A stretch of 50,714 nucleotides of DNA from Sneathiellales bacterium (GTDB lineage Bacteria; Pseudomonadota; Alphaproteobacteria; JANQFL01): contig JANQFL010000006.1 in the NCBI GenBank assembly GCA_028277845.1, positions 1 through 50,714 on the forward strand. Direction: 5' to 3'. Both the position numbers and the translations under genes were made by a program. Shown here one piece after another: positions 7,912 through 22,022 of this stretch. Below the pieces are notes generated by a model, which saw only the letters and a program-made list of their open reading frames with translations, did not search any database and was not told the origin of the DNA. Position 1 is the first letter of the stretch; the number at the start of each line of letters is the position of its first letter.

Positions 7912-8757
7912 ATGACGGACACTGGGACACATTTGTTCAACCGCGCCTGTCGCGCCACCCTTTGTTTGGGCGGTGTGTTTGCCTTGCTCGTATTTGGGTC
8001 GGCGGCACTGTCGGCAGAACAACCCGTCAGCAGCTACGTTCCACACATTGCGCAAACGCGTGCGGCGCCCCCCTATCCTCTACGCCGGAACGTCGGCCAC
8101 GGGGCGCAGCTCAACACGATCACGCCGGCGGCCAGGCATCCGGCGGCGGACGACGGCGCGCCTGTCACGGCGACGCCCATCGGCAACCTGGCGGCACCGA
8201 TCGTGCAACCGGCTTTGCCGGTCACGCGCCCGTCACAAGCGGATGCCATCGCGTTTGTCCGGGGCCTGGCCGGTAAGGCCCTCGGGGTACTGAATGACAA
8301 CTCGTTGTCTGCGCGGCAACGTGATGTCCGATTGCGCAAGCTGATGCGGCGGGGACTGAACCTCCAACTCATCGGCAAGTTTGCACTGGGCCAATACTGG
8401 GAAACGGCGGATTCGACCCTGATGGGCGAATATCAAAAGCTGTTCGGCGATTTTGTCATCGCGACCTACAGCAAGCATTTCGGCAAGCGCAAGGTGGATG
8501 CCATTTCATTTGTCGGCACGCGCGCCGCAGGCCGCAAGGACGTCGTGGTCAGCACCCGGTTCGAACTGGCGGTCGGTATTGGCATCCCGGCGAACTGGCG
8601 TGTTCGCGACGTCGAAGGCCGGTTGCAAATCATCGACGTGGAAATTGCCGGCATCAGCATGGCCATGACCTACCGCAACGAATTCATTTCCTACATGGAA
8701 CGGAACGGCGGCCAACTGGATGGCTTGGTCAGCCGGTTGCGCAGACGGCCCACCTGA
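7912..8757 (+). CDS. MlaC/HpnM-family periplasmic protein
   Basis: 281-residue exported protein of the MlaC (Ttg2D, toluene tolerance) superfamily, which carries phospholipids or hopanoid-related lipids across the periplasm. A signal segment (about 14-37) is followed by a Pro/Ala-rich linker (about 38-105) and the MlaC-like domain: helix ADAIAFVRGLAGKAL, the family hallmark FALGQYWETA near 160-170, then FGDFVIATYSKHF, and a final beta-rich part. The rest of an Mla ABC transporter is absent here, and no squalene-hopene genes are seen, so this is an orphan. The long linker is unusual. Confidence 0.78.
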   Translation: MTDTGTHLFNRACRATLCLGGVFALLVFGSAALSAEQPVSSYVPHIAQTRAAPPYPLRRNVGHGAQLNTITPAARHPAADDGAPVTATPIGNLAAPIVQPALPVTRPSQADAIAFVRGLAGKALGVLNDNSLSARQRDVRLRKLMRRGLNLQLIGKFALGQYWETADSTLMGEYQKLFGDFVIATYSKHFGKRKVDAISFVGTRAAGRKDVVVSTRFELAVGIGIPANWRVRDVEGRLQIIDVEIAGISMAMTYRNEFISYMERNGGQLDGLVSRLRRRPT

Positions 8758-8781
8758 CACGCAAAACTCTCTTTTCTATCA

Positions 8782-8807
8782 CCGATAGATTATTATCGGA
8801 TTCTTTT
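8782..8807 (+). terminator. Hairpin with T-rich tail after the MlaC/HpnM-like gene
   Basis: CCGATA (8782-8787) pairs with TATCGG (8794-8799) across a 6-nt loop, followed by ATTCTTTT. It lies 25 bp downstream of the stop at 8757. The stem is short, so the call is tentative. Confidence 0.4.
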
Positions 8808-8948
8808 AATCAGTAATACGAACTTTCCCCGCTTTGAGGGAAAGAACCTCCTGTTTTTCTGTGGTCTGATAGTGGCCACGTCCTGAATATTTCGATTGTT
8901 TCTCGGATCTTCTGTCGCGCATGGACACATGCGATTTGTGGGGGACGG

Positions 8949-9353
8949 ATGCCAGGACGACCGCGGCACATCGATGTTCATGTGGGGAAACGGATTCGCG
9001 TGCGTCGTACTCTGTTGGGTATCAGTCAAACGGAACTGGCCGGTCGCGTCGGTCTGACTTTTCAACAGGTCCAGAAATACGAACGCGGTGCAAATCAGTT
9101 GGCGGCCAGCCGATTGTTCCATTTTTCCCAGGCGCTTGAAGTCCCGATCGATTACTTCTTCGAAGAGGCTTCCCTGTCGGCACCCCCCTCCGGACAAGAC
9201 AACGCCGACGAGCGAGACAACAAAATAACACGGCGCGAAACGCTCGAATTGGCCCGTGCATTCCAATCCATCGCCAGCGACACCGTGCGGCGGGATTTGA
9301 TTACCTTGGTCGAGAACATCGTCAAATCATTGACACCGCGCAGCGCCGGCTAG
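8949..9353 (+). CDS. XRE-family helix-turn-helix regulator
   Basis: 134 residues. A Cro/CI-type DNA-binding domain spans about 12-70 (RVRRTLLGISQTELAGRVGL then FQQVQKYERGANQ), followed by a short C-terminal helix region. This short architecture with an FFEE-type linker is common in alphaproteobacterial regulators of cell-surface or stress genes. Its stop overlaps by four bases the stop of the convergent SHMT gene (CTAG at 9350-9353). The target is unknown. Confidence 0.88.
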   Translation: MPGRPRHIDVHVGKRIRVRRTLLGISQTELAGRVGLTFQQVQKYERGANQLAASRLFHFSQALEVPIDYFFEEASLSAPPSGQDNADERDNKITRRETLELARAFQSIASDTVRRDLITLVENIVKSLTPRSAG

Positions 9354-10651
9354 ATGTCGCGGTCGTAAATCGGAAATCGCCGGCACAATGCCCGTGTATT
9401 GTCGCGGACGGAGTGCTGTCGCGCCGACACATCCCCCTGAACCAAGCCATCGACGATGTCGGCGATCCAACCGCCTATGGCCCGAAATTCGTCGGCCGCG
9501 AAACCCCGGGTCGTACCGGCGGACACACCAAGCCGTAATCCGGACGTCACCGTCGGAGGCTGTGTATCACCGGGCACCGCGTTCTTGTTGCAGGTCAGTC
9601 CCGCCAATTCCAAAGCGTCCGACGTTTCCGCCCCGGTCAGGCCTTGCGGCCGCAAATCGATCAATACGATCGGCGTGTCCGTGCCTCCTGTGACAACGGA
9701 TACGCCCCGGTCCATCAGAGTACCGGCGAGCGCACGGGCGTTTTCGAGCACCTGTCGGGCGTAGACCCGGAAGTCGGGCTGCAAGGCTTCGCCCAGACAC
9801 ACCGCCTTCGCCGCGACGGCGTTGAGTATGACGCTGCCCTGGACCCCGGGAAATACGGCCGAGTTCAGTTTCTTGCCCAGGTCCTGGTCATTGCCGAGGA
9901 TCAGACCGCCACGCACGCCGCGCAGGTTCTTGTACGTGGTGGCCGTCACGACATCGGCATGGGGCAGCGGATCGGGGTGGACACCGCCGGCGACCAGTCC
10001 GGCGAAATGGGCAATATCGGCCAACATGAAGGCGCCAACGGAATCCGAGATCTCGCGGAAGCGGGCGAAATCGATGGCGCGGGGGTAGGCCGATCCGCCG
10101 CAGATGATCAGCTTGGGGCGATGCGTGCGCGCCAGATCCGCGACGGCATCATAGTCGATCAAGCCGGTCGTTTCGTCAACGCCATAGGACACCACATTGA
10201 ACCACTTGCCGGAAATGTTCGGGCCGGCACCATGGCTGAGGTGCCCGCCCGACGGCAGGGCCATGCTCAGCACCGTGTCGCCGGGCTGCAGCAACGCCAG
10301 AAAGACCGCCAGGTTGGCCTGGCTGCCCGAATGGGGCTGGACGTTGGCGTAGGTGCATCCGAATAACCGTTTCGCCCGGTCGATAGCCAGGGCTTCGGCC
10401 TCGTCGGCATAGTCGGCGCCGCCGTAATACCGCCGCCCCGGATACCCTTCGACGGTCTTGTTGACCATGATCGAACCAAGCGCCTCGAGACTGGCACGGC
10501 TGACCAGGTTTTCGGACGCGATCAGTTCGATCTGTTCGTTCTGGCGGTCACGCTCGCCCTTCAGGGCGGCGTACAATTCCGGGTCACGGTTCTTCAGACT
10601 TTGGCTGAAATAACCAGCGGGGACGAACGCTGTGTCGGTGTCAGGTGGCAT
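9350..10651 (-). CDS. Divergent serine hydroxymethyltransferase (GlyA-like)
   Basis: 433-residue PLP enzyme of the SHMT family (serine + THF to glycine + methylene-THF). Family signatures are EGYPGRRYYGG, PHSGSQAN, SGGHLSHG and the PLP Lys near 241 in TATTYKNLRGVRGG. The usual TTTTHK becomes TATTYK, and the usual FPGxQGGPL becomes FPGVQGSVIL, so this is probably a specialised paralogue rather than the housekeeping GlyA. Known side branches include 2-methylserine hydroxymethyltransferase, which this could be. It lies 33 bp downstream of the RdhA-like gene on the same strand and is probably co-transcribed, although its ribosome site is weak. Confidence 0.88.
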   Translation of the reverse strand: MPPDTDTAFVPAGYFSQSLKNRDPELYAALKGERDRQNEQIELIASENLVSRASLEALGSIMVNKTVEGYPGRRYYGGADYADEAEALAIDRAKRLFGCTYANVQPHSGSQANLAVFLALLQPGDTVLSMALPSGGHLSHGAGPNISGKWFNVVSYGVDETTGLIDYDAVADLARTHRPKLIICGGSAYPRAIDFARFREISDSVGAFMLADIAHFAGLVAGGVHPDPLPHADVVTATTYKNLRGVRGGLILGNDQDLGKKLNSAVFPGVQGSVILNAVAAKAVCLGEALQPDFRVYARQVLENARALAGTLMDRGVSVVTGGTDTPIVLIDLRPQGLTGAETSDALELAGLTCNKNAVPGDTQPPTVTSGLRLGVSAGTTRGFAADEFRAIGGWIADIVDGLVQGDVSARQHSVRDNTRALCRRFPIYDRDI

Positions 10652-10684
10652 GACACCACTATGACCGATCGGTGGTGGTCGATG

Positions 10685-11932
10685 CTATGCCGATTTCCAC
10701 CAGGTGTTCGGGGCGACCCGATCACGGGTGAGCCATTTCCGGTCGGCCCAGATCATCAGCTTACGCAAACGGCTGCCCATCAGGCGGAACAGCAGCCGGT
10801 TATACCATTTGGTATAATCCTTGTTGTAGCTGCACACCCGCATGCAGATGGCGCAGTCGACCCGCATCTTGGTCCAGAACTTGAAACACTTCTCGCAATC
10901 GGCCGACCACTTGACCACCCCCTTGATGGTCGAGCGGTTGGGCCCGCCGGCCTCGGGCGGCCCCTTGGGCAGCGCCTTGGGCGGGCAGGCATCGGCGCAC
11001 TTGGTGCATTCCATGCAGTATTGGTGGATGCCGTACTTTTTCGGCCGGTCGTGCGCCAGGGGCATGTCGGTGTAGACCTTGGAGAACCGCACCCGCGGTC
11101 CGAATTCCTTGGTGATGACCATCTGATTGCGGCCGTATTCGCCAAGTCCCGCCTTGACCACATGGGGAATGGTGATGCCGGTGTCGTTGGACGACCCGTA
11201 GGCCCGATAGCCCAGGCCCTCGATGAACCCGGCCAGCGACGAGACGATGGCGGCTTCGCGGGAGTATTCCCGACCGGTGGCCGACGCCGCCAGGGCCGAG
11301 GGATAGGACTCGACCAGGTCCCGGTCCATACCGTGGCCCATGACGATGACGCTGGTCATGCCTTCGGGCAGCAGATTGTCCTTCTCGTCCCGGGTTTTGG
11401 TCGCGGCGTCGGCGCTGTGTGTATATACCCAGCGCTCGTCGAATTCCGTAATGCCCACCAGATCGGCACCGAAAAACTTCGCGACCTTTTTGACCCGCGC
11501 CGCCGTTTCCTCCGGCGACGGCAGGTCGGCCTGGGTCTCCGCCTTGGGGACGAACGTGCGGAAATGATCGAGAAAGCCTTCCCGCACCCCGTCCTTGCGG
11601 CCGCGCATGGCATAATCCCGGGCGACCGACCAGGATGCGTTCACCAGGGAAAAGTCCCACTGGGAGAAGCCTTCGCCACGACGTGGCTTGGGGCGTATCT
11701 GCGCGTTATAGAACGCGATGACGTCGTCCGACATCACCGCCTGGTCCCACCAGGCCCGGTTGAAAATGTCGTCGTGTTGGCTGAAGCGTTCGAAATCGTC
11801 CGTGAACACGAAGCCGGCTTCCCGGTCGCTCTCCTCGAAACGCGACCAATCGGTCAGGTTATCGGGAGGCCGGTTGGCGGGCCAACCGCCCGACTGTTCC
11901 GGCATATCGAAGTCTTTGTCAGCCAAGACCAC
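10685..11932 (-). CDS. Reductive-dehalogenase-like corrinoid/Fe-S protein, no Tat signal
   Basis: 415 residues. The central part (about 240-310) has the RdhA-type corrinoid-domain run GLGEYGRNQMVITKEFGPRV followed by TDMPL. Two 4Fe-4S sites follow: CMECTKCADACP (about 306-317), then CEKC and CAICMRVC in a second cluster (about 345-375). Respiratory RdhA enzymes carry a Tat signal and are about 450-550 residues; catabolic aerobic ones carry an extra reductase module and are about 700. This one has neither, starting MVLADKDFDMPEQ. It may use an external reductase, act on a non-halogenated substrate, or be a QueG-like relative, although the motifs fit RdhA better. No rdhB anchor gene is present. 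It is upstream of the SHMT-like gene. Confidence 0.82.
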   Translation of the reverse strand: MVLADKDFDMPEQSGGWPANRPPDNLTDWSRFEESDREAGFVFTDDFERFSQHDDIFNRAWWDQAVMSDDVIAFYNAQIRPKPRRGEGFSQWDFSLVNASWSVARDYAMRGRKDGVREGFLDHFRTFVPKAETQADLPSPEETAARVKKVAKFFGADLVGITEFDERWVYTHSADAATKTRDEKDNLLPEGMTSVIVMGHGMDRDLVESYPSALAASATGREYSREAAIVSSLAGFIEGLGYRAYGSSNDTGITIPHVVKAGLGEYGRNQMVITKEFGPRVRFSKVYTDMPLAHDRPKKYGIHQYCMECTKCADACPPKALPKGPPEAGGPNRSTIKGVVKWSADCEKCFKFWTKMRVDCAICMRVCSYNKDYTKWYNRLLFRLMGSRLRKLMIWADRKWLTRDRVAPNTWWKSA

Positions 11933-11978
11933 GCCCTTTCGCCAGCGTAGCGACTCTCAAAGCCGCAGAAAACCTATT

Positions 11979-11996
11979 TATCTTATATGTAAGATA
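11979..11996. promoter_or_regulatory. AT-rich 18-bp palindrome between acyl-CoA synthetase and RdhA-like gene
   Basis: TATCTTA (11979-11985) and TAAGATA (11990-11996) are exact inverted arms around TATG. It lies immediately after the stop of the acyl-CoA synthetase gene and 47 bp upstream of the RdhA-like start, both on the minus strand. It looks more like a MarR/ArsR-type operator than a terminator, because the stem is AT-rich and no T-run follows. Confidence 0.4.
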
Positions 11997-13964
11997 TTAT
12001 GGTGACACAACATCCCTAAGCTCGTCAACCGCCTCCGGATTGACCAACGAGGCGAGGTCGCCCGGCGCCTTGCCCATGTACACCGCCTTCACCACCCGGC
12101 GCAGGATCTTCATGTTCCGGGTTTTCGGCAATTGCGACACCAGCACCACGTCGCCCGGCCGGAAGGCCGGACCCAGGCCGGCAACGACCGCGTCGCGCAC
12201 CATCTCGCAGACGACGTCCTCGCCATGTTCCGCGACGGCGCCGTCCGACGGCACGCACGCGCACAGCACCGTCTCGCCCTTCAGATCATGGTGCACGCCG
12301 GCGGCGGCCACTTCGGCGACCACGCCCGAGTTCATGACCAGGGCCTCCACTTCGGACGGTCCGCAGCGTTTGCCGGCAACCATGATCGTCTCGTCGGACC
12401 GGCCGTGCAGGTACCACATGCCGTCTGCGTCGCGCGACGCCCAGTCGCCGTGCACCCAGAGGCCCGGCATGCGGTTCCAGTAGGCTTCCAGATAGCGGTC
12501 GTCGTCGTTCCACAGGCTGCGGGTCAGGCCGATCGACGGCACCCGCATGACCAGTTCGCCGGTTTCGCCGGGCGCCACGGGTCGGCCCTCCGCATCGACG
12601 ATGTCGGCCCCCATGCCGGGCATGGACCCGGTGAACGAACACGGCCTGGCCGGATGGATGACGGTACTGGAAATGATGCCGCAGCCGATTTCGGTGCCGC
12701 CGGAAAGATTGAGGATCGGCGCCGTGTTCTTGCACACATGCTGCATGAACCAGGACCATGAGTCCGGGTTCCACAGCTCACCGGACGATATGGTGATGCG
12801 CACCGACGACATGTCGTATTTCTGTACTTCCTCGACGCCGTAGCGCATCAGCGCACGCACCGTCGTCGGAGCGACGCCGAGATAGCTGACCTTGTGATCC
12901 TGCACCAGTCGCCACATGCGGCCGGGTTCGGGATAGTCGGGCGTGCCCTCGGCCATGACGATGGTGCCGCCCAGCATGGGCACCGCCACCGCCGTCAAAG
13001 CGCCGACCACCCAGCCGATGTCGGAAATCCACAGCCAGCGGTCGCCCGGCTTGAAGTCCAGGACCAGGCCGAAATCCGCCGCCAGCTTGGTGGTAAAGCC
13101 GCAGTGGGTATGGACCGTGCCCTTGGCCTTGCCGGTGGTGCCGGAGGTGAAATAGAGCATGAACGGGTCTTCGGCATCCATTTGCTCGGTCGGCACGTCG
13201 CCGGGATCGTCGGGCGCGATGTCGTGCCACCACACGTCGCGCCCCTCATCCATGGCCACCGTTTGGTCCATGCCGTTGAGCACCACCATGTGGCGCAGGG
13301 TCGGCACGTCGGTGGCGGTTTCGTCCATGACGTCCTTCATGCGCACGACCTTGCCGCGGCGGCGCGTCGCGTCGGTGGTGACCAGGGCGACGGCGCCGGC
13401 GTCGTTCATGCGCACGGCGGCGGCCTGGGCGCCGAAGCCGGAGAACAGCGGCTGCACGATGGCGCCGATCTTGGCGACGGCGAGAAACGCGGCGATGGTC
13501 TCCGGCACCATGGGCATGTAGAGCGACACCACGTCGCCCCGGCCCAGCCCCAGGGCGCGCAGACCGGCGGCCAGGCCGCAAACGGCACGGTTGAAATCGG
13601 CATAGGTCCAGCGCCGCACCGAGCCGTCCTCACCTTCCCAGACGATGGCCTCCCGGTCGCGCACCTCCGTATCCATGTGGCGGTCGAGGATGTTGAGCAC
13701 CGCGTTGGTGGTGCCGCCGGTGCACCAGCGCGCCCAGGGCGCCCCTTTGGAAACGTCGAGAATGGACTCGTAGGGGGTATAAAATCCGAGGTCGAAATGA
13801 TCGATGACGGTTTGCCAGAACCAGGCCGGATCGGCCGCGGACTTTTCGTTCAGTTCCTCGTAGTCGGCCAAGCCATATCTGGCCAGATACCGGGTCAGCT
13901 CGGCGTCCTCGATCTGCCGTCGATTCGGCCGCCAGATAAACTCGCCGTCGGACTCCTGACTCAT
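11997..13964 (-). CDS. AMP-forming acyl-CoA synthetase (AcsA-like)
   Basis: 655-residue ANL-superfamily ligase that activates a carboxylic acid through an acyl-AMP to an acyl-CoA. It has the P-loop-like YFTSGTTGKAKGTVHTH, the core LSGGTEIGCG, the hinge region GRSDETIMVAGKRCGPSEVE and the catalytic Lys in LPKTRNMKILRR. Length and the N-terminal WxxP/FYTPYESILD layout resemble acetyl-, propionyl- or acetoacetyl-CoA synthetases. The usual RSGK before the catalytic Lys is RNMK here. The frame opens at 13985, but the ATG at 13964 (MSQESD) has GGGGAGAG seven bases upstream. The substrate is not determined. Confidence 0.88.
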   Translation of the reverse strand: MSQESDGEFIWRPNRRQIEDAELTRYLARYGLADYEELNEKSAADPAWFWQTVIDHFDLGFYTPYESILDVSKGAPWARWCTGGTTNAVLNILDRHMDTEVRDREAIVWEGEDGSVRRWTYADFNRAVCGLAAGLRALGLGRGDVVSLYMPMVPETIAAFLAVAKIGAIVQPLFSGFGAQAAAVRMNDAGAVALVTTDATRRRGKVVRMKDVMDETATDVPTLRHMVVLNGMDQTVAMDEGRDVWWHDIAPDDPGDVPTEQMDAEDPFMLYFTSGTTGKAKGTVHTHCGFTTKLAADFGLVLDFKPGDRWLWISDIGWVVGALTAVAVPMLGGTIVMAEGTPDYPEPGRMWRLVQDHKVSYLGVAPTTVRALMRYGVEEVQKYDMSSVRITISSGELWNPDSWSWFMQHVCKNTAPILNLSGGTEIGCGIISSTVIHPARPCSFTGSMPGMGADIVDAEGRPVAPGETGELVMRVPSIGLTRSLWNDDDRYLEAYWNRMPGLWVHGDWASRDADGMWYLHGRSDETIMVAGKRCGPSEVEALVMNSGVVAEVAAAGVHHDLKGETVLCACVPSDGAVAEHGEDVVCEMVRDAVVAGLGPAFRPGDVVLVSQLPKTRNMKILRRVVKAVYMGKAPGDLASLVNPEAVDELRDVVSP

Positions 13965-14108: not shown

Positions 14109-16970
14109 ATGACCGACTCGCTCCAACATCCCCCGGTCCCGACGGAAGACGGCACCGAAGCGCCTATCGAATTCAGCACGGATGATCCGGGCGAAGCGCT
14201 ATTGATCATCATCCGCGACCTGTCCGCCGAACTGCACCCCGGCCGCAAGACCACGCAGCACCTTTCCCTGGACAGCAGCCTCGACAAGGACCTGGGATTT
14301 GACAGCCTCGGCCGGGCCGAATTGCTGTTGCGGGCGGAAAAGCACTTAGCGGTCAAACTCAATGAATCTCTGCTGGCCGAAGTGGAAACGCCGCGTCAGT
14401 TGCTGGAGGCGATCATCCACGCCGCACCGGAGACGCTGACCATCGCCGACGCGGCGGTCAAGGTTTACGAGCTGTCTCCGTCGGAAGGCCTGCCGGAAAA
14501 TGCCCAGACATTGCCGCAGGTGCTCGAATGGCACGCGGCGCGCCATCCCGACCGGCCGCATATTACGCTGTCCAAGGGCTACAGCGACGAGGAGGTCATC
14601 ACATACGGCCAGCTCGCCGAACGGGCCAAGGACGTGGCCCGCGGCCTGGTGGCCGGCGGGCTCAAGCCCGGCGACCGCGCCGCCATCATGCTGCCGACCA
14701 GCGACGAGTTCTTCTATGCCTTCTTCGGCATCCTCTATGCCGGCGGCGTGCCGGTTCCCATATATCCGCCGGTGCGCCTGTCGCAGTTGGAGGATCATCT
14801 GCGCCGCCAGGCCGTGATCCTGAACAACGCCGGGGCCGCGGTGCTGGTCACCGTCAAGGAAGCCCGGCGCCTGGCCATCCTGCTGAAATCGCAGGTCGCC
14901 GGCCTGCGCAGCGTCGATACGGTGACCGAGCTGCGCGCCAGAGACGGCGCCGACTTGCCGGTCGTCGACGACACCAACCGCATCGCGTTTTTGCAATACA
15001 CGTCCGGCAGCACCGGCGATCCCAAGGGCGTGGTGCTGACGCATGCCAACCTGCTGGCCAATGTCCGCGGCATGGGCCATACCATCGATGCCACGTCGGC
15101 CGATGTTTTCATCAGTTGGCTGCCGCTCTATCACGACATGGGTCTGATCGGCGCCTGGCTGGCAACCCAGTATTTTGCCGTGCCGACCGTCATCATGTCG
15201 CCGCTGACGTTCCTGGCCCGGCCGGCCAGTTGGCTGTGGGCGATCCACCGGCACAAGGGCACCCTGTCGGCCGCGCCCAACTTCGCCTTCGAGCTCTGCC
15301 TCAACAAAGTCAGCGACGAGGATGCCCAGGGGCTCGATCTCAGCAGCCTGCGCATGGTGGCGAACGGCGCCGAACCCATCGCCGCGTCGACCATCCGGCG
15401 CTTCACAGAGCGCTTCGCCCCCTACGGTTTCAAGCCGGAGGCCCTGGCGCCGGTGTACGGGCTGGCGGAAAGTTCCGTCGGCGTTGCCTTTCCGCCCGAA
15501 GGCCGGGCGCCGATCATCGACCGGATCGACCGTCGGGCGTTGACCGAAGGCGGAGTCGCGGAACCGGCGGCGGATGACGATTTGACGGCACTGGAATGTG
15601 TCGCCTGCGGCCGGCCCATGCCCGGGCACCAGATCCGTGTCGTCGACGACACCGGCCGGGAAGTCGCGGACCGGCGGCAAGGCCGGCTGCAGTTCCGCGG
15701 CCCGTCCTCCACCAGCGGCTACTACAACAACCCGGAAAAAACCAAGGCTCTGTTCGACGGCGACTGGCTGGAAACCGGCGACCTGGCCTACATCGCCGGC
15801 GGTGACGTCTTTTTCACCGGCCGGGTCAAGGACATGATCATCCGGGCCGGGCGCAACATCTATCCCGCGGAAATCGAATCGGCGGTCGGCGACGTGGACG
15901 GCGTGCGTAAGGGCTGCGTCGCCGTGTTCGGCAGTCCCGACCCCCACACCGCCAAGGAAAGGCTTGTCGTCCTGGCGGAAACGCGGATCACGGACGAGGA
16001 TGAAAAGGAAGCGATTCGCGACCGTATCGTCGCCGTCTGCGCCGCGTTGCTGGATGCGCCGCCGGACGACGTGGTGCTGGGGCCGCCGCAGACCGTACCC
16101 AAGACGTCAAGCGGCAAGATCCGCCGGACGTCGAGCCGGGAACTCTATGAAAGCGGCCGCATCGGCAGCAAACCGCGCGCCGTGTGGCGCCAGGTCGCAG
16201 GGCTGGCTCTGACCAGTCTCAAGGCACAGTTGTCGCGCGCGGTCCGCATCGCCGGCGAATACGCCTATGCCGGCTGGTGGTGGCTGAGCGTGGTCCTCAC
16301 GGCGGTGATCGTTTGGCCGTCGGTCTTGGTTTTGCCGACACCCAAGATGCGCTGGGGTGTCCTGCGCGGCGCGGCGAAGACCTTGTTTGCGGTGACCGGA
16401 ACCCGGATCACTTTGGAAGGCGCCGACAATGTCGCACCCGGTGTCGTGGTGGCCAACCACGCAAGTTATATCGACGGCTTGATGCTGGCGGCGGTTTGGC
16501 CGGGTTCCCTGCGGTTTGTCGCCAAAAGGGAACTGAAAAACCAATTCATCGCCGGCCCGTTCCTCAGCCGCCTCGGCACCGTATTCGCCGAACGTTTCGA
16601 TACGGGAAAAGCGGTGGACAGCAAACAAAGAGCACTCGATGCCGCGAAATCGGGCGATTCGCTTGTGTTCTTCCCGGAAGGCACGCTGACTCGGCGCCCC
16701 GGTCTGATGGAATTTCGCCTCGGTGCGTTTCTGGTTGCCGCGGAATCCGGTATGCCGGTGACGCCGGTGACCCTGCACGGCAACCGTTCCGTCCTGCGTG
16801 GTGACCAGTGGTTTCCACGCCACGGTCATCTGAGCGTCACCATCTCTCCGCCCATCTCGCCCCGCGGCAGCGACTGGGCCGCCGCGGTGCACTTACGCGA
16901 TTCGGCCCGGGCGGAAATTCTCTATCATTGCGGCGAACCGGACCTGACCGAAGAAAAGGTTCTCTTCTGA
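14109..16970 (+). CDS. Three-domain acyl carrier / acyl-AMP ligase / PlsC acyltransferase
   Basis: 953 residues. A carrier domain (about 25-100) has the phosphopantetheine Ser near 66 in DLGFDSLG. The AMP-ligase domain (about 120-690) has LQYTSGSTGDPKGVVLTH, the FAAL-like PLYHDMGLIGAWL, GRVKDMIIRAGRNIYP and the catalytic Lys in TSSGKIRR. A membrane-associated segment (about 720-745) leads to a PlsC domain with NHASYID (His near 784) and FFPEGT (about 854). It could load a fatty acid on its own carrier and transfer it to a lysolipid or other acceptor, like Aas but with a different domain order and an added carrier. It is divergent from the acyl-CoA synthetase gene. Confidence 0.9.
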   Translation: MTDSLQHPPVPTEDGTEAPIEFSTDDPGEALLIIIRDLSAELHPGRKTTQHLSLDSSLDKDLGFDSLGRAELLLRAEKHLAVKLNESLLAEVETPRQLLEAIIHAAPETLTIADAAVKVYELSPSEGLPENAQTLPQVLEWHAARHPDRPHITLSKGYSDEEVITYGQLAERAKDVARGLVAGGLKPGDRAAIMLPTSDEFFYAFFGILYAGGVPVPIYPPVRLSQLEDHLRRQAVILNNAGAAVLVTVKEARRLAILLKSQVAGLRSVDTVTELRARDGADLPVVDDTNRIAFLQYTSGSTGDPKGVVLTHANLLANVRGMGHTIDATSADVFISWLPLYHDMGLIGAWLATQYFAVPTVIMSPLTFLARPASWLWAIHRHKGTLSAAPNFAFELCLNKVSDEDAQGLDLSSLRMVANGAEPIAASTIRRFTERFAPYGFKPEALAPVYGLAESSVGVAFPPEGRAPIIDRIDRRALTEGGVAEPAADDDLTALECVACGRPMPGHQIRVVDDTGREVADRRQGRLQFRGPSSTSGYYNNPEKTKALFDGDWLETGDLAYIAGGDVFFTGRVKDMIIRAGRNIYPAEIESAVGDVDGVRKGCVAVFGSPDPHTAKERLVVLAETRITDEDEKEAIRDRIVAVCAALLDAPPDDVVLGPPQTVPKTSSGKIRRTSSRELYESGRIGSKPRAVWRQVAGLALTSLKAQLSRAVRIAGEYAYAGWWWLSVVLTAVIVWPSVLVLPTPKMRWGVLRGAAKTLFAVTGTRITLEGADNVAPGVVVANHASYIDGLMLAAVWPGSLRFVAKRELKNQFIAGPFLSRLGTVFAERFDTGKAVDSKQRALDAAKSGDSLVFFPEGTLTRRPGLMEFRLGAFLVAAESGMPVTPVTLHGNRSVLRGDQWFPRHGHLSVTISPPISPRGSDWAAAVHLRDSARAEILYHCGEPDLTEEKVLF

Positions 16971-17274: not shown

Positions 17275-18054
17275 ATGTTCCGGAAATTGACTGTTGCCCT
17301 TGGACTAGCCACTGCAACCATGGCGTTCGGAGCGCCGGCCCAGGCCTTGTTGTTCGATCAGAACGTCACGCCCGACGTGATCTTCGGAACCGGCAACAGC
17401 AACGGGTTCTGGACCGTCGACCGGAACAACAATGTCGAAGTCGGCCTGCGCGGAAAAATCCGTTATCAAGGCGTCTACAACAGCCAGGGCAACGGCACCT
17501 ATACCTTCGACACCGGTTCATCGAATGTGCCGCCCAGTTCCGCCGCCCTGTGGAATTACGAATTCGCCATCAACGTCAACCTGAACGGATCGCCCGGCGG
17601 ACGCACCCTGGCCGACGTGGACATCGTGCTGTCGATCGACACGGATCCGGGTCTCGGTCAAAGCTGGATCAGCTTCAATCCCTTCGCCGCGTGGACGGAC
17701 AATGCCGTGGGCGACAATTCCACCGGTAACGGCGGTGGTGTCGACGGCACGGACATCGGGGTATGGGGGCCGCTGTCGGTGGCTCAAAACTCGCAGAACC
17801 TGGGTTGGACCCTGGGCGCCCTCTCGATCCCGTTCGATTACGACCTTGCGGCCACCTATGACTTCCGCCTTGCCGTGTTCGATCCCGGACTGATCGGCCA
17901 GGTCGAAAATCCCGTACCCCTTGCATTGACGGAAATGACCGTCGAAGTCGGCGGCGGCGCCATCCCGGAACCATCGTCCTTGGCCTTGCTCGGTGCGGGG
18001 CTTGCCGGGTTGGTATATGTCCGCCGACGCAACCGACGCGCCTCGTCAATCTGA
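17275..18054 (+). CDS. PEP-CTERM sorting domain protein
   Basis: 259-residue exported protein. It has an N-terminal signal peptide (about 1-23, ending AQA), a beta-rich, Asn/Asp/Gly-rich body with no family I recognise, and a C-terminal PEP-CTERM tail: IPEPSSLALLGAGLAGL (about 233-250) followed by an Arg-rich end (YVRRRNRR). The tail is recognised by an exosortase (EpsH/XrtA), which is not in this window. PEP-CTERM proteins usually accompany exopolysaccharide and floc or biofilm matrix. It is controlled by a clear sigma-54 promoter and stands alone as a transcription unit. Confidence 0.92.
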   Translation: MFRKLTVALGLATATMAFGAPAQALLFDQNVTPDVIFGTGNSNGFWTVDRNNNVEVGLRGKIRYQGVYNSQGNGTYTFDTGSSNVPPSSAALWNYEFAINVNLNGSPGGRTLADVDIVLSIDTDPGLGQSWISFNPFAAWTDNAVGDNSTGNGGGVDGTDIGVWGPLSVAQNSQNLGWTLGALSIPFDYDLAATYDFRLAVFDPGLIGQVENPVPLALTEMTVEVGGGAIPEPSSLALLGAGLAGLVYVRRRNRRASSI

Positions 18055-18171: not shown

Positions 18172-19221
18172 ATGGTTCGGAACACGGGTATCGCGGTGCT
18201 TTGCCGCGCGGTTTTCGTTTGTTTTGTATTTTCGTTACTGACGGTTTTTTCTATCGATGTGAATCCGGCGTCGGCGCAATCGCCGGCCGGCCGGGACGTA
18301 TCGCAAGGCGAATCACTGAATGGCGCGGTGCCGGGCAATACCACCGGCGGCGTCAGCGATTCCGAGTTCTGGCGCCAGGTCCGCAGCGGCGCGGCCGGCG
18401 GGCTGGTCCCGTTGGTGCAAAGCCAAGGCGACGAATGGAGCCGCTGGCGCGGTCCGCTGCAGACCTACGGCGGCTGGATCCTGGCTGTCGTGGTGGGCAT
18501 CATCCTGATCTACTTCGCCATCCGTGGCCGCATGCGCATCGAAGGCGGGCGCACCGGCATGGTCATCCCGCGCTTTTCGTTGACGCAGCGTGTCGCGCAT
18601 TGGGTCATCGCCATCCTGTTCGTCATTCTCGGACTGTCGGGACTGGCGATCATGTTTGGACGCTTTGTACTGATTCCCGTGTTCGGTAAGGATGGCTTCG
18701 CCGCCATCGCCAGCCTGTCCCTGCAGGCCCACAATCTGTTCGGACCGCTGTTCGTGCCGGCCGTCATTGCGCTGTTCATCACCTTCCTGCGCGGCAACGG
18801 TTTCAAGATGCACGACCTCAAATGGATCATGAAAGGCGGCGGATTCTTCGGCGTCCATGCCAGTTCCGAGAAGTACAATTTCGGCGAAAAGAGCTGGTTC
18901 TGGTGGGCCATCCTGACCGGCATCGCCCTGTCGGTGACGGGCCTGATCATGGTTCTGCCCGGCCTCGGCTTCGAACGTGGCACCATGCAGATCGCCAACG
19001 TCATCCACACGGCTGCGGCAATTTTGTTCATGGCTGTGGGCATCGGCCACATGTATGTTGGCACCATCGGCATCGAAGGTGCTCTTGAGGGCATGACCCG
19101 CGGCACCGTCGACGTCAATTGGGCGAAAGAGCACCACGACATGTGGTACGAGCAGCACGCCGACGAAGCGACGCCCGATGTCGCCGCCGCCGAAGCCCAG
19201 GCGGCCGACGGGAAGGTGTAG
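18172..19221 (+). CDS. Formate dehydrogenase gamma subunit-like cytochrome b (FdhI-like)
   Basis: 349-residue membrane protein. It starts at the ATG 18172 with GGGAG six bases upstream; an 26-residue longer frame is open but has no ribosome site. Signal-like segment (about 10-35), a soluble stretch, then a membrane segment near 105-125 and a four-helix cytochrome b556 core: RFSLTQRVAHWVIAILFVIL, LQAHNLFGPLFVPAVIALF, then IHTAAAILFMAVGIGHMYVG, with the histidines expected to ligate haem b. The family passes electrons between an Fe-S subunit and quinone. No FDH alpha or beta gene is near; NarI-like and HdrD-like genes follow instead. Confidence 0.85.
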   Translation: MVRNTGIAVLCRAVFVCFVFSLLTVFSIDVNPASAQSPAGRDVSQGESLNGAVPGNTTGGVSDSEFWRQVRSGAAGGLVPLVQSQGDEWSRWRGPLQTYGGWILAVVVGIILIYFAIRGRMRIEGGRTGMVIPRFSLTQRVAHWVIAILFVILGLSGLAIMFGRFVLIPVFGKDGFAAIASLSLQAHNLFGPLFVPAVIALFITFLRGNGFKMHDLKWIMKGGGFFGVHASSEKYNFGEKSWFWWAILTGIALSVTGLIMVLPGLGFERGTMQIANVIHTAAAILFMAVGIGHMYVGTIGIEGALEGMTRGTVDVNWAKEHHDMWYEQHADEATPDVAAAEAQAADGKV

Positions 19222-19261
19222 CCCGAAAGATCGGCGCACAACCGGATAGGGGAGCCTGCTC

Positions 19262-19939
19262 ATGAACGACGCAAATCAATCTGGGCATGCCATCCCCTGG
19301 TTCACGGACTTTGCGGAAGGCCCGTTGTGGTACGTGGCGGCGACCGTCTTCGTTTTCGGCGTCCTGTGGCGGATCGTCGGTCTGCTCGCCCTGGGCCGGG
19401 GCGAAGATAAGAGCGTGCCGAAGCAAAGCGGCATGGCCGGCGGCATCAAGGCGATCTTGCTACATTCCGTGCCGCACGGCGGCTTTTTCACCCACACGGC
19501 GTTTCACGTCATCGCCGGCTACATGTTTCACATCGGCCTGTTCGCGTTGTTGTTCTTCGCCGCTCCCCATGTGGATTTCCTGCGCGAACGTGTCCTCGGC
19601 TTCGGCTGGACTCCGCTGCCCGACTGGGCCTTCATCGTTGCGGCACAGATCTCGTTCGCCGGATTGATCCTGCTGTGGGTGCGGCGCGTTGCCGATCCGG
19701 TCATTCGGCGGCTAAAGGATGCCCATGACTATATCGGCAGCGGCCTGACGTTCCTGGTCATGCTGACCGGTTGCTTCGCCTTACAGGAATCGCGGCCGGT
19801 TCTGGCCGGTATTCACATGTTCACCGTCGACATCTGGCTGATCTACTTCCCGTTCAGCCGTCTGATGCACGCCTTTACGTTCCTGTTCAGCCGCTACTAC
19901 ACCGGCGCCTTTTACGGCCGGCGCGGGGTGACGCCATGA
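19262..19939 (+). CDS. NarI/DsrM-like cytochrome b membrane subunit
   Basis: 225 residues with about five hydrophobic helices. It resembles the NarI family of dihaem cytochrome b subunits, including DsrM and Hme/Tmc homologues: HSVPHGGFFTHTAFHVIAGYMFHIG, split here as a His-rich pair of helices, and IHMFTVDIWLIYFPFSRLMHAF, with histidines suitable as haem ligands near both membrane faces. Clear ribosome site (GGGGAG seven bases before the ATG). Its stop overlaps the start of the next gene (ATGA), so translation is probably coupled. It likely connects the Fe-S partner to the quinone pool. Confidence 0.78.
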   Translation: MNDANQSGHAIPWFTDFAEGPLWYVAATVFVFGVLWRIVGLLALGRGEDKSVPKQSGMAGGIKAILLHSVPHGGFFTHTAFHVIAGYMFHIGLFALLFFAAPHVDFLRERVLGFGWTPLPDWAFIVAAQISFAGLILLWVRRVADPVIRRLKDAHDYIGSGLTFLVMLTGCFALQESRPVLAGIHMFTVDIWLIYFPFSRLMHAFTFLFSRYYTGAFYGRRGVTP

Positions 19940-21225
19940 GCGACACGACCGCCCCGCAAACCTCGGCCGCTCCCGTCGATGTACCGTCTGCCGTCCGCGT
20001 CATGCTCGATCAGATGGGCGCCAACATCGCCACCTGGCTGGATTCATGCCTGCATTGCGGCCAATGCGCCCAGGCCTGCCATTTCCACGAAGTCAGCCGC
20101 GACCCACGCCATTCGCCGGCCTACAAGCTGAAGCCGCTGGTCAAAGCCTACAAGCGGCACAAATCGCCGTTCGCCAAATTGCGCACGACGTTGGGTTTCC
20201 CGGCCCAGGACGTCACCGCCGACGACCTGCGCGAATGGCAGGAACTGATCTACGACACCTGCACCATGTGCGGCCGCTGTACGGTCGTGTGCCCGATGGG
20301 CATCGATACGGCGTCGCTGGTCGGCCTGACCCGTACCGCCATGGTCGCAGCCGGGCTTGGCCCGCCCGACCTGCTGGCGACCGCCGACCGCTCCGCCGAG
20401 GTAGGCAGCCCGTTGGGTATGACGCCGGACACGTTGGAAGACCGCATCGAATGGCTGGCCGACGATTACGAGGTCGACATTCCGCTCGACAAGGACAAGG
20501 CCCGTGTACTGCTGACCGTGTCGTCGATCGAGGCCATGAAATACCCCCAATCCATCGTCGCCATGGCCAGGATCCTCAACCACGCGGGCGAGGACTGGAC
20601 GTTCTCCACCAAGGGCTACGAAGCGACCAACTTCGGCATGCTGTCAGGCAAGTCGGACGTGGCGGCCAAGATGCTGGGCCGTATCGTCAATGCCGCAGAA
20701 AGCGTCGGTGCCGAACTGGTGATCATTCCCGAATGCGGTCATGCCTATGGCGCCCTGCGTTGGACCGGCGCCAAGATCCTCGGCCGGGCCCTGCCATTCG
20801 CGGTGCAGCACATCACCGAATACCTGGCCGATGCCAAGGCGGCGGGCAAGCTCAAACTGAAACCGTTCGCCGAATCGATCACCTACCACGATCCCTGCCA
20901 GGTTTCGCGCCGCGGCGGCGCGACGCAGGCGCCGAGGGACATTCTGGCCGGCTTCGCCCAGGATTTCCGCGAAATGGCGCCGACCGGCAACGCCAACTGG
21001 TGCTGCGGCGGTGGCGGCGGCGTGGCGGCCATCGAATCAGCCACGGATCTGCGCCTCAAGGTGTTCGGAATCAAGATGGACCAAGTGGCCGAAACCGGCG
21101 CCGACACCATGGTGTCGGCCTGCGCCAACTGCCGGCAAAGCCTGGATGCCGGCAAGGAACACTTCGGCTGGGACAAGGACATCGCCAGTCTGGTCGAAAT
21201 CGTCGCCGATCACTTGGACGAATAG
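19936..21225 (+). CDS. HdrD/DsrK-like iron-sulfur protein with CCG domain
   Basis: 429 residues. Two ferredoxin-type clusters at the N-terminus: CLHCGQCAQAC (about 38-48) and CTMCGRCTVVCP (about 108-119). The C-terminal CCG domain has DPCQVSRRGG, CCGGGGG and ACANCRQS, the cysteine pattern of heterodisulfide reductase HdrB/D that holds a special 4Fe-4S cluster. The first of the usual two CCG halves is degenerate. Relatives include DsrK, TmcB and lactate/glycolate oxidase Fe-S subunits. The start is the ATG at 19936, overlapping the previous stop. Together with the two cytochrome b genes it should form a membrane quinone-linked oxidoreductase of unknown substrate. Confidence 0.85.
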   Translation: MSDTTAPQTSAAPVDVPSAVRVMLDQMGANIATWLDSCLHCGQCAQACHFHEVSRDPRHSPAYKLKPLVKAYKRHKSPFAKLRTTLGFPAQDVTADDLREWQELIYDTCTMCGRCTVVCPMGIDTASLVGLTRTAMVAAGLGPPDLLATADRSAEVGSPLGMTPDTLEDRIEWLADDYEVDIPLDKDKARVLLTVSSIEAMKYPQSIVAMARILNHAGEDWTFSTKGYEATNFGMLSGKSDVAAKMLGRIVNAAESVGAELVIIPECGHAYGALRWTGAKILGRALPFAVQHITEYLADAKAAGKLKLKPFAESITYHDPCQVSRRGGATQAPRDILAGFAQDFREMAPTGNANWCCGGGGGVAAIESATDLRLKVFGIKMDQVAETGADTMVSACANCRQSLDAGKEHFGWDKDIASLVEIVADHLDE

Positions 21226-21464: not shown

Positions 21465-22022
21465 CTAGGGTGTTCGCCGGCTGACGTAGCCGGGCGCGAC
21501 CGCATCGGCCAGCCAGACACGCTCGTTGCCCAGATAGAACGCCGTCCCGTCGGCGTGCGCCGACCCTGCCGCGATCACCAGTAACACCGGTTTTGGCGCC
21601 TTTCGCCGCCCCACCTGCATGGCCATGTCCACGTCGACGGACAGATGTACGTATTGCCGGCCCATGGGCCGCAGCCCTTCGGCCAGAATCGCATCCGCCA
21701 CCGCCGGACTGGTGCCGTGGTAAAGCGTATCCGGCGGCACGGCCGGCACCAGATCCAGGCGCCCCGGCAACGAATGACCGTATCGGGCACGAATTCGTCC
21801 GTCGGCGATCTCGTGGCGTTTCTTGTCGGACAGCGCGATCATTTGCGCCAGATCGCTCTCAGTCAGTCCCACCCAATGCGAATTGGCCTCGGCGGCTGCC
21901 GACAGGACCGCCTCGATCGGCGTCCAGCCTTCCGCGTCCAACTCCAACTCGTAGAGCCACGGCGCGTGCCGCAACGCGTGCGAGAGCATTTTGCTCAGTT
22001 TCTTGTAGTCGGCTTTGTCCAT
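21465..22022 (-). CDS. kptA: RNA 2'-phosphotransferase KptA/Tpt1
   Basis: 185 residues, the normal length. KptA moves an internal RNA 2'-phosphate to NAD+, giving ADP-ribose 1'',2''-cyclic phosphate and nicotinamide. The Arg-His-Arg-Arg type active-site motifs are visible: LSHALRHAPW (about 13-22), RARYGHS (about 77-83), LYHGTS (about 100-105) and the region GRQYVHLSVD (about 121-130). In eukaryotes it ends tRNA splicing; in bacteria its natural substrate is uncertain, and no RNA ligase that would create a 2'-phosphate is near. It is divergent from the GST-like gene. Confidence 0.92.
   Translation of the reverse strand: MDKADYKKLSKMLSHALRHAPWLYELELDAEGWTPIEAVLSAAAEANSHWVGLTESDLAQMIALSDKKRHEIADGRIRARYGHSLPGRLDLVPAVPPDTLYHGTSPAVADAILAEGLRPMGRQYVHLSVDVDMAMQVGRRKAPKPVLLVIAAGSAHADGTAFYLGNERVWLADAVAPGYVSRRTP

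Follow-up and report, generated by a model that had tools for sequence, protein, structure and literature searches.

The protein pair Isp1 and Isp2 has been described on [NiFe]-hydrogenases of groups 1e/1g (HydSL, or HynSL, with Isp1-Isp2, in Thiocapsa, Allochromatium, Acidithiobacillus and Acidianus), and an electron route from HydSL through the Isp proteins to the DsrC disulfide has been proposed (PMC5944118, in the portion of the paper available). The gene order hynS-isp1-isp2-hynL and formate dehydrogenase (FDH) are both mentioned, but separately, in the available portions of two further papers (PMC2621215, PMC5021923). No description of an FDH-Isp complex was found in the literature searched, with preprints and most subscription papers outside its reach, and neither 'isp2' nor 'NarI' occurs in the portion examined of a 2026 FDH review. 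Relative to these sources, the pair as an extension of the FDH3 complex, which we describe here, appears to be new. The locus lies in a 50,714-nucleotide stretch of DNA from a Sneathiellales bacterium (GCA_028277845.1, contig JANQFL010000006.1, positions 1 to 50,714; hereafter the window), where three genes on the + strand, at 18172-21225, encode an FDH gamma-type cytochrome b (FdhI), a NarI-fold cytochrome b (Isp1) and an HdrD/DsrK-like iron-sulfur (Fe-S) protein (Isp2). Very probably this trio serves an FDH3 as its membrane module.

All three open reading frames (ORFs), which an initial annotation had named from the sequence, were confirmed. The gene fdhI (349 aa; ATG 18172 to stop 19221) was assigned by TIGR01583 and an alignment to FdnI; the isp1-like gene (225 aa; 19262..19939) by NCBIfam matches, alignment and an AlphaFold model; and the isp2-like gene, encoding an Fe-S protein of HdrD/DsrK/EtfD fold (429 aa; ATG 19936..21225), by Pfam and NCBIfam, alignment and an AlphaFold model. 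The starts had been described as coupled; this holds for isp1 and isp2, where the stop of the former overlaps the start of the latter by the four bases ATGA (19936..19939, + strand), but not for fdhI and isp1, which are separated by a spacer of 40 bases. Searches of the whole 50.7-kb window with FdhA, FdhB, hydrogenase and accessory proteins (tblastn, E 1e-3) matched only the trio itself. The reported absence of FDH alpha and beta subunits is thus correct for the window, but fdhA and fdhB are present at another site in the same genome.

Relatives of the trio were collected from an 84,980-species collection with a profile of four Isp1 sequences; 99 loci were confirmed, of which 80 (L084-L163) were analysed. 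All three genes are present in 75 of the 80 loci, and the trio and fdhAB genes detected share one strand in every locus (80/80). Therefore, the arrangement is not a product of chance. In 62 loci the trio is immediately preceded, within 2.5 kb and on its own strand, by fdhB, accompanied by fdhA wherever the contig reaches that far. The typical gene run is fdhA-fdhB-fdhI-isp1-isp2, the trio being its 3' part, with median gaps of 272, 46 and 24 bases between the tblastn ends of successive proteins from FdhB to Isp2 (60 loci with all four). The remaining 18 loci include five in which the contig ends less than 1 kb before the trio and 13 with at least 1 kb of upstream sequence and no fdhAB. Named members of the set are Allgaiera indica, Jhaorihella thermophila, Magnetovibrio blakemorei, Marimonas lutisalis, Seohaeicola saemankumensis and Candidatus Thiodiazotropha endoloripes. 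The five-gene run occurs in cultured strains of the first five (DSM 24802, DSM 23413, MV-1, GH1-19 and DP4N-5, respectively). The trio is rare in the class sample: a strong Isp1 match was found in 2/385 genomes (this one and G367) and a weak match in two more. The initial annotation had suggested an uncharacterised oxidoreductase devoid of dehydrogenase subunits. The first part stands, in that the unit of two haem-b subunits and a CCG protein is conserved among relatives and no description of it was found in the literature searched; the second does not, since homologues, although mostly kept together, are tied to FDH3.

In this genome (G000; 5.39 Mb, 124 contigs, 98.47% complete) fdhB is divided between the ends of two contigs, C55 and C35. 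These ends share an exact 99-base overlap inside the gene, so that the two contigs are probably adjacent in the genome. The FdhB pieces are 84-89% identical to FdhB of genome G686 (L040), which scores 343 bits on NF038355 'formate dehydrogenase FDH3 subunit beta' (cut-off 240); in L040, the segment 7844-8545 corresponds to PF16917. The fdhA product of G000 is 957 aa long, contains three Pfam molybdopterin domains (TIGR01591, 482.6 bits, under the cut-off of 666) and, read by eye, begins with a twin-arginine-like signal. An FDH3 beta subunit and a molybdopterin alpha subunit are both encoded in the genome, away from the trio. The fdh locus further includes a TorD-like chaperone gene (under the family cut-off), a lipoprotein-like ORF and a DUF6352 gene; fdhI was not found beside fdhAB. 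A genome-wide search with the window FdhI in four genomes (G000, G367, G686 and G714) returned one FDH gamma subunit in each, always that of the trio, and in G686 (L086) and G714 (L090) the trio directly follows fdhA-fdhB. The upstream position of fdhAB in 62/80 relatives, together with the gamma-less fdhAB and the sole FdhI of this genome, argues that the trio is the FDH3 membrane module, split here from fdhAB. We regard the link to FDH as strong; the acceptor and the direction of electron flow are inferred.

Two other genes of the fdh contigs have counterparts elsewhere. One (C35; L076 9931-11745) encodes a WD40-repeat protein with a C-terminal c-type cytochrome domain, and similar genes occur in other FDH3 loci; the other (C55; L075 2155-4182) encodes a 675-aa polyferredoxin-like protein with partial similarity to HdrA, relatives of which adjoin many FDH3 loci. 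G000 is the sole genome of its order and family in the collection searched and may represent an isolated alphaproteobacterial lineage.

With 154.5 bits on TIGR01583 'formate dehydrogenase subunit gamma', FdhI clears the cut-off of 115.85, as expected of an FDH3 gamma subunit. The match covers residues 132-328 (18565..19155, + strand), an FdnI-like di-haem core. In an alignment with Escherichia coli FdnI (1kqf_C; E 2e-20) the four haem-binding His of FdnI, which we take to be at positions 18, 57, 155 and 169, align with His. The N-terminus, with topology judged by eye, appears to comprise a signal-peptide-like segment, a stretch of ~65 residues and an extra transmembrane helix ahead of the four-helix core. 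On its sequence, FdhI is an FDH gamma subunit. FdhA, FdhB and FdhI, with the haem His of FdnI, are common to FDH3 (NF038355) and E. coli Fdn; the latter is not known to have Isp1-Isp2 beside it.

Isp1 scores 21.2 bits on the Pfam NarI family, slightly below the cut-off of 22.9, and its best NCBIfam match is to TmcC (110.7 bits, cut-off 240), with HmcE (82.5/275) and DsrM (21/300) behind. Comparison of the sequence with the PDB, by single query and by profile, yielded nothing or chance matches, and the fold search was more productive. With the AlphaFold model (m55d48ea210a9; pLDDT 90.6, 78 rows) as query, NarI chains came first in Foldseek (probability 1.00, E 5e-4). The VIA Z against NarI was 12.5 (165 aligned residues, rmsd 3.9), a value to be read in the light of helical bundles scoring up to 13 from arrangement alone; EtfD was next (Z 8.7), followed by unrelated helical proteins (Z 7.9 and less). 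Four His residues (H90, H103, H185 and H203) are kept without exception across the alignment (78/78 trio, 14/14 hydrogenase- or SQR-linked and 1/1 DsrM rows). Judged from alignment and model, Isp1 is a four-His NarI-fold cytochrome b.

The NCBIfam matches of Isp2 are likewise below their cut-offs: HmcF, 237.9 bits (750); DsrK, 225.8 (400); TmcB, 219.9 (735). The AlphaFold model (mf39e400e4628; pLDDT 94.4, 71 rows) has its best fold match in Mycobacterium smegmatis EtfD (Z 28.7 over 392 residues), with further matches to a LutA model (Z 24.6) and to HdrB (Z 21.5-22.6). When trio loci (70 rows), hydrogenase- or SQR-linked loci (14 rows) and DsrK (two rows) were aligned, all 14 Cys of the window's Isp2 proved invariant (70/70, 14/14 and 2/2), as did H269. 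Eight of these Cys make up two cubane [4Fe-4S] motifs (C38, C41, C44, C48, 20047..20079; C109, C112, C115, C119, 20260..20292; both + strand). Five (C321, C356, C357, C396, C399; 20878..21144, + strand) lie in the CCG domain (PF02754, residues 315-403) and constitute the ligand set for one non-cubane [4Fe-4S] cluster. The last, C267, belongs to a C267-G-H269 motif (20734..20742, + strand), in which the Cys and His line up with Cys581 and His583 in the M. smegmatis EtfD. On its sequence, Isp2 carries ligands for two cubane and one non-cubane [4Fe-4S] cluster. A four-His NarI-fold b cytochrome followed by an HdrD/DsrK-like protein with two cubane and one CCG motif is the layout of an Isp1-Isp2 module, and the pair in the window shows it.

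Several described systems resemble this module in part. DsrMK(JOP), TmcBC and HmcEF share with it a cytochrome b and a DsrK-like protein and provide the top NCBIfam matches; the trio differs from them in its link to FdhAB and in scores far under the equivalog cut-offs. Membership of the Tmc, Hmc and DsrMK families was rejected, as both Isp1 and Isp2 score below the NCBIfam cut-offs of these families. HdrDE also combines a NarI-type cytochrome b with a CCG Fe-S protein, whereas the trio is bacterial, FDH-linked and endowed with one complete CCG site only; HdrD requires two such sites and the 14 Cys of Isp2 supply one, which led us to reject this assignment as well. In EtfD, cluster D2 is held by five Cys that match the CCG set of Isp2, and His583 completes the non-cubane cluster, reportedly rendering it non-catalytic (PMC13083937, in the part available). 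The overall fold of the cytochrome and Fe-S parts and the D2-type ligands, including the His, are therefore shared with EtfD. However, the system described here is encoded by two genes, is FDH-linked and lacks most D1 ligands: of the linear D1 set (Cys503, 538, 581 and 584) Isp2 retains only the equivalent of Cys581, C267, and the position of Cys584 is occupied by A270. On the three missing Cys, a link to an electron-transfer flavoprotein was set aside as first choice.

There is also a close likeness to the hydrogenases, with which the pair and its His and Cys are shared. In further Pseudomonadota loci matched by Isp1 (L043-L054), HydS, Isp1, Isp2 and HydL are found together in 11 of 12; in L053 there is no HydL before the contig ends 0.8 kb after Isp2. 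All four are also present on a Methylovirgula plasmid. The donor of the trio is FDH3 with its own gamma subunit, FdhI, and not HydSL: the group 1e arrangement, with HydS and HydL beside Isp1-Isp2, is absent from the window, and a single HydS was seen nearby (L157) in the 80 loci.

The trees of the two proteins differ. In the Isp1 tree (94 rows) the 14 hydrogenase- or SQR-linked rows fall on one side of a branch with support 99/100 and the trio-type rows, including stand-alone trios, on the other, the stand-alone rows being interspersed with the FDH-linked ones. In the Isp2 tree (87 rows) the same 14 loci are scattered among the rest, and forcing them together costs 392 log units (approximately unbiased, AU, test, p 1.8e-87). 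At hydrogenase locus L044, for example, Isp2 is nested within the clade of the window's Isp2 (100/99), and Isp1 is rejected from the window's clade (AU p 3.8e-11), with the qualification that long end branches (L045, L053, L009, L044) weaken single tree placements. Rows that were too short belong to L134 and L147 (Isp1) and to L096, L112, L122, L124, L129, L148, L153, L162 and L163 (Isp2); L106 is without Isp2, and row set A3 is likewise without L106; L117 is represented by its second copy in the Isp1 tree and by its first in the Isp2 tree. On the simplest reading, Isp1 tracks the donor enzyme and Isp2 has been exchanged between formate and hydrogen operons, although the incongruence could alternatively reflect old duplicates and losses. 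Such an exchange would fit a common cytoplasmic acceptor.

Some individual loci are of interest in their own right. At L042 (G605; 8383-13135) genes for a FadL-like protein, an SQR-like flavoprotein, Isp1 and Isp2 follow one another on one strand, in a neighbourhood with SoeABC-like molybdoenzyme subunits (recognised by eye) and in which no hydrogenase or FDH gamma was found; it is a third donor type for Isp1-Isp2. In L117 (7149-11901; Marinosulfonomonas sp. S010_73) fdhA-fdhB-fdhI are followed by two consecutive Isp1-Isp2 pairs, with Isp2 proteins 47.6% and 42.8% identical to that of the window. In L112 (10001-12200) only the N-terminal half of Isp2 (residues 19-223) was matched after fdhI and isp1, and the protein there looks truncated. 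The FDH-Isp run of L157 (1-7947) has a hydrogenase small-subunit gene ~1.6 kb further on, and both Isp-bearing systems may therefore sit side by side.

A link to sulfur, which the initial annotation had suggested, is backed by the distribution of DsrA. DsrA scored over the cut-off in 62 of the 80 trio genomes (41/50 and 21/30), in 4/289 Alphaproteobacteria of the class background, one of them this genome (hence 3/288 others), and in 0/14 named control genomes; for 41/50 against 3/288, Fisher's p is 2.6e-40. When four of the first 50 that are titled as other groups (L122, L125, L128 and L130) are dropped, the count, made by hand, is 38/46. This genome has dsrA, dsrC and dsrK over the cut-off and a dsrM-like gene at 175 of 300 bits, all on contig C77, where we take another gene to be DsrL-like. 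A FadL-like gene is present in the flanks of 4/13 stand-alone trios and 0/62 FDH-linked ones (p 6e-4), a comparison between flanks of unequal length, those of FDH-linked loci being occupied in part by the fdh genes.

The FadL-like genes near stand-alone trios are at L091 (11937-14724), L111 (1768-4325), L085 (2-1058) and L143 (9950-10906). Three of these, L085, L091 (PF13686) and L111, also have a DsrE2-like gene, and the latter two have TusA as well. Among hydrogenase loci, L043 and L045 have a FadL-like gene and L044 has DsrE2-like and TusA genes. The window itself contains none of the three.

The explanation that we favour, with modest confidence, is that an FDH3 membrane module is joined to an Isp1-Isp2 conduit passing formate electrons to a cytoplasmic sulfur carrier. 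Its parts can be graded separately: the trio is likely to be a membrane-crossing conduit ending at Isp2; our judgement is evenly balanced on whether the cytoplasmic partner is a sulfur carrier; and a net flow from formate to sulfur is put forward tentatively, the chances being a little short of even. Formate would be oxidised by FdhAB in the periplasm; the haems of FdhI would receive the electrons, and FdhI would reduce quinone. Isp1, either beside FdhI or via quinol, would move electrons across the membrane to Isp2, the non-cubane cluster of which would exchange them with a cytoplasmic thiol or persulfide carrier, in sulfur oxidisers most likely DsrC or one of TusA/DsrE type. The working mode would be that proposed for the HydSL-Isp1-Isp2 hydrogenase, with formate replacing hydrogen. 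More tentatively still, the whole may be a formate:cytoplasmic-sulfur-carrier oxidoreductase. In sulfur-oxidising Alpha- and Gammaproteobacteria it would be a single membrane complex linking formate oxidation in the periplasm, via its two haem-b subunits, to sulfur bound by DsrC or TusA/DsrE, Isp2 being an interchangeable acceptor unit swapped with those of hydrogenases and of an SQR-like enzyme.

The classic formate-nitrate loop pairs these two types of cytochrome b as well. For this reason, and given an archaeal HdrDE proposal, a built-in quinone loop, with FdhI reducing and Isp1 oxidising, is kept as a possibility, as is an electron split between quinone and sulfur. In the archaeal case, FDH and a cytochrome b are proposed to feed HdrDE through a membrane pool in Ca. 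Methylarchaeales (PMC9478090, in the portion available); this route resembles the trio in its membrane cytochromes and quinone-like pool and differs in being made of two separate complexes that are not encoded in one gene run. Formate electrons also reach an Hdr-type CCG protein in the methanogen Fdh-HdrABC complex (7bkb), which is soluble. Both routes are archaeal and have CoM-S-S-CoB as acceptor.

A number of observations weigh against a formate-to-sulfur conduit. Ubiquinone has a potential of about +0.1 V; were it the sole link between FdhI and Isp1, disulfide reduction would be uphill, and these potentials would favour direct FdhI-Isp1 transfer or a quinone/cytoplasm split. Because H269 aligns with EtfD His583, Isp2 may, by analogy, be a mere electron relay. 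The DsrA counts (62/80 against 3/288) compare sets that differ in taxonomy and in the quality of assemblies and metagenome-assembled genomes, and related genomes are not independent. DsrA over the cut-off is missing from 18/80 trio genomes, at least five of which have pieces of DsrA or DsrB (L105, L136, L148, L155 and L160); among ten DsrA-less genomes tested, six, including the isolate Allgaiera indica, are without DsrC and four have it. In the ten loci with an Isp2 at least 51% identical to that of the window (L086, L090, L091, L096, L102, L108, L110, L111, L143 and L145), DsrA is present in four, against 58/70 of the rest (p 0.007); this grouping was made after the identities were known and is not quite a clade, as L145 falls outside it in the Isp2 tree and L096 is too short to be placed. 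These counts and the DsrC-less genomes imply that DsrC cannot be the sole partner.

The FDH side has its own counterevidence. For 18 genomes no fdhAB was seen next to the trio; FdhB was sought elsewhere in 14 of them and found in 11 (E <= 1e-40), which speaks for the FDH link, whereas the other three yielded none. In 8/10 fdh loci of such genomes a second FdhI, 34-41% identical to that of the window, adjoins fdhB (L175, L176, L177, L179, L180, L181, L183 and L184; not L178, and L182 ends 677 bases past fdhB); for L184, from L130, the trio is cut by a contig end and was not shown to stand alone. In those genomes the FdhI of the trio may therefore be an additional gamma subunit. Compared with these FDH3 loci, which have no adjoining Isp1-Isp2, the trio adds a cytoplasm-facing CCG protein. 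The fdh loci of G000 and G367 contain no second FdhI.

Other explanations are less probable than the formate-to-sulfur conduit. The one that fares best, although we consider it doubtful, is that Isp1-Isp2 has no specific sulfur partner and gives the FDH a further outlet on the cytoplasmic side, at low potential, to NAD or ferredoxin, for use in biosynthesis. Models of hydrogenase-Isp1-Isp2 built with AlphaFold were the basis for proposing an output of this kind in hydrogenases of group 1g and SUL2 (PMC11018855, in the part available). The absence of DsrC from six of the ten DsrA-less genomes is compatible with it, and so is H269, which suggests a relay cluster. Sulfur-oxidising autotrophs, moreover, require low-potential electrons. 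However, no flavin- or NAD-binding domain was detected by Pfam in the trio proteins, clusters of the CCG kind typically belong to thiol-disulfide enzymes, and the co-occurrence with DsrA would be left unexplained.

Reverse flow, from DsrC thiols or persulfides through Isp2 and Isp1 to quinone or FdhI, would turn the pair into a second DsrMK-like exit. This is improbable: it provides no reason for the fdhAB link in 62/80 loci, some trio genomes have neither DsrA nor DsrC, and this genome already possesses a DsrMK pair, even though Dsr-bearing genomes predominate and the haem His and cluster Cys are common to Isp1/Isp2 and DsrM/DsrK. The electron-transfer flavoprotein (ETF), named as a candidate partner in the initial annotation, has become less likely. 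An EtfD-like path from ETF via Isp2 and Isp1 to quinone, with FdhI merely an operon companion, would suit the fold matches (EtfD is the best for Isp2 and stands second only to NarI for Isp1) and the shared His583 position, but three of the four D1 Cys ligands are absent and fdhAB is the usual neighbour, so that we consider it very improbable. Least probable of all is that the window trio is a stand-alone copy acting as an independent oxidoreductase, its FdhI serving a donor other than FdhAB: the 13 loci without fdhAB, the second FdhI in 8/10 fdh loci and the three genomes without FdhB would agree with this, but in G000 and G367 no gamma other than the trio FdhI was found, either beside fdhAB or elsewhere, and the Isp1 tree places stand-alone rows among the FDH-linked ones.

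In the window, the trio is preceded by a gene for a PEP-CTERM-like protein (17275-18054; named on the basis of its sequence) and followed by an ORF on the opposite strand (21465-22022). A promoter scan returned one promoter-like site, on the opposite strand (0.8 expected), and a terminator scan nine terminator-like sites against 3.1 expected, of which seven fall within the trio genes; thus, the start and end of the operon are not clear. Further upstream, a 953-aa ORF (14109-16970) appears by eye to be a fusion of a carrier domain, an AMP-dependent ligase and an acyltransferase. P0003 had no match in viral_contigs.

Marine and sediment communities commonly produce formate. Isp1-Isp2 as a regular part of FDH in many Alpha- and Gammaproteobacteria, most of them with Dsr genes, would tie formate directly to a cytoplasmic sulfur pathway. 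If Isp2 is traded between operons and Isp1 stays with its donor, the electron partner of Isp2, and by likeness that of DsrK, would become testable.

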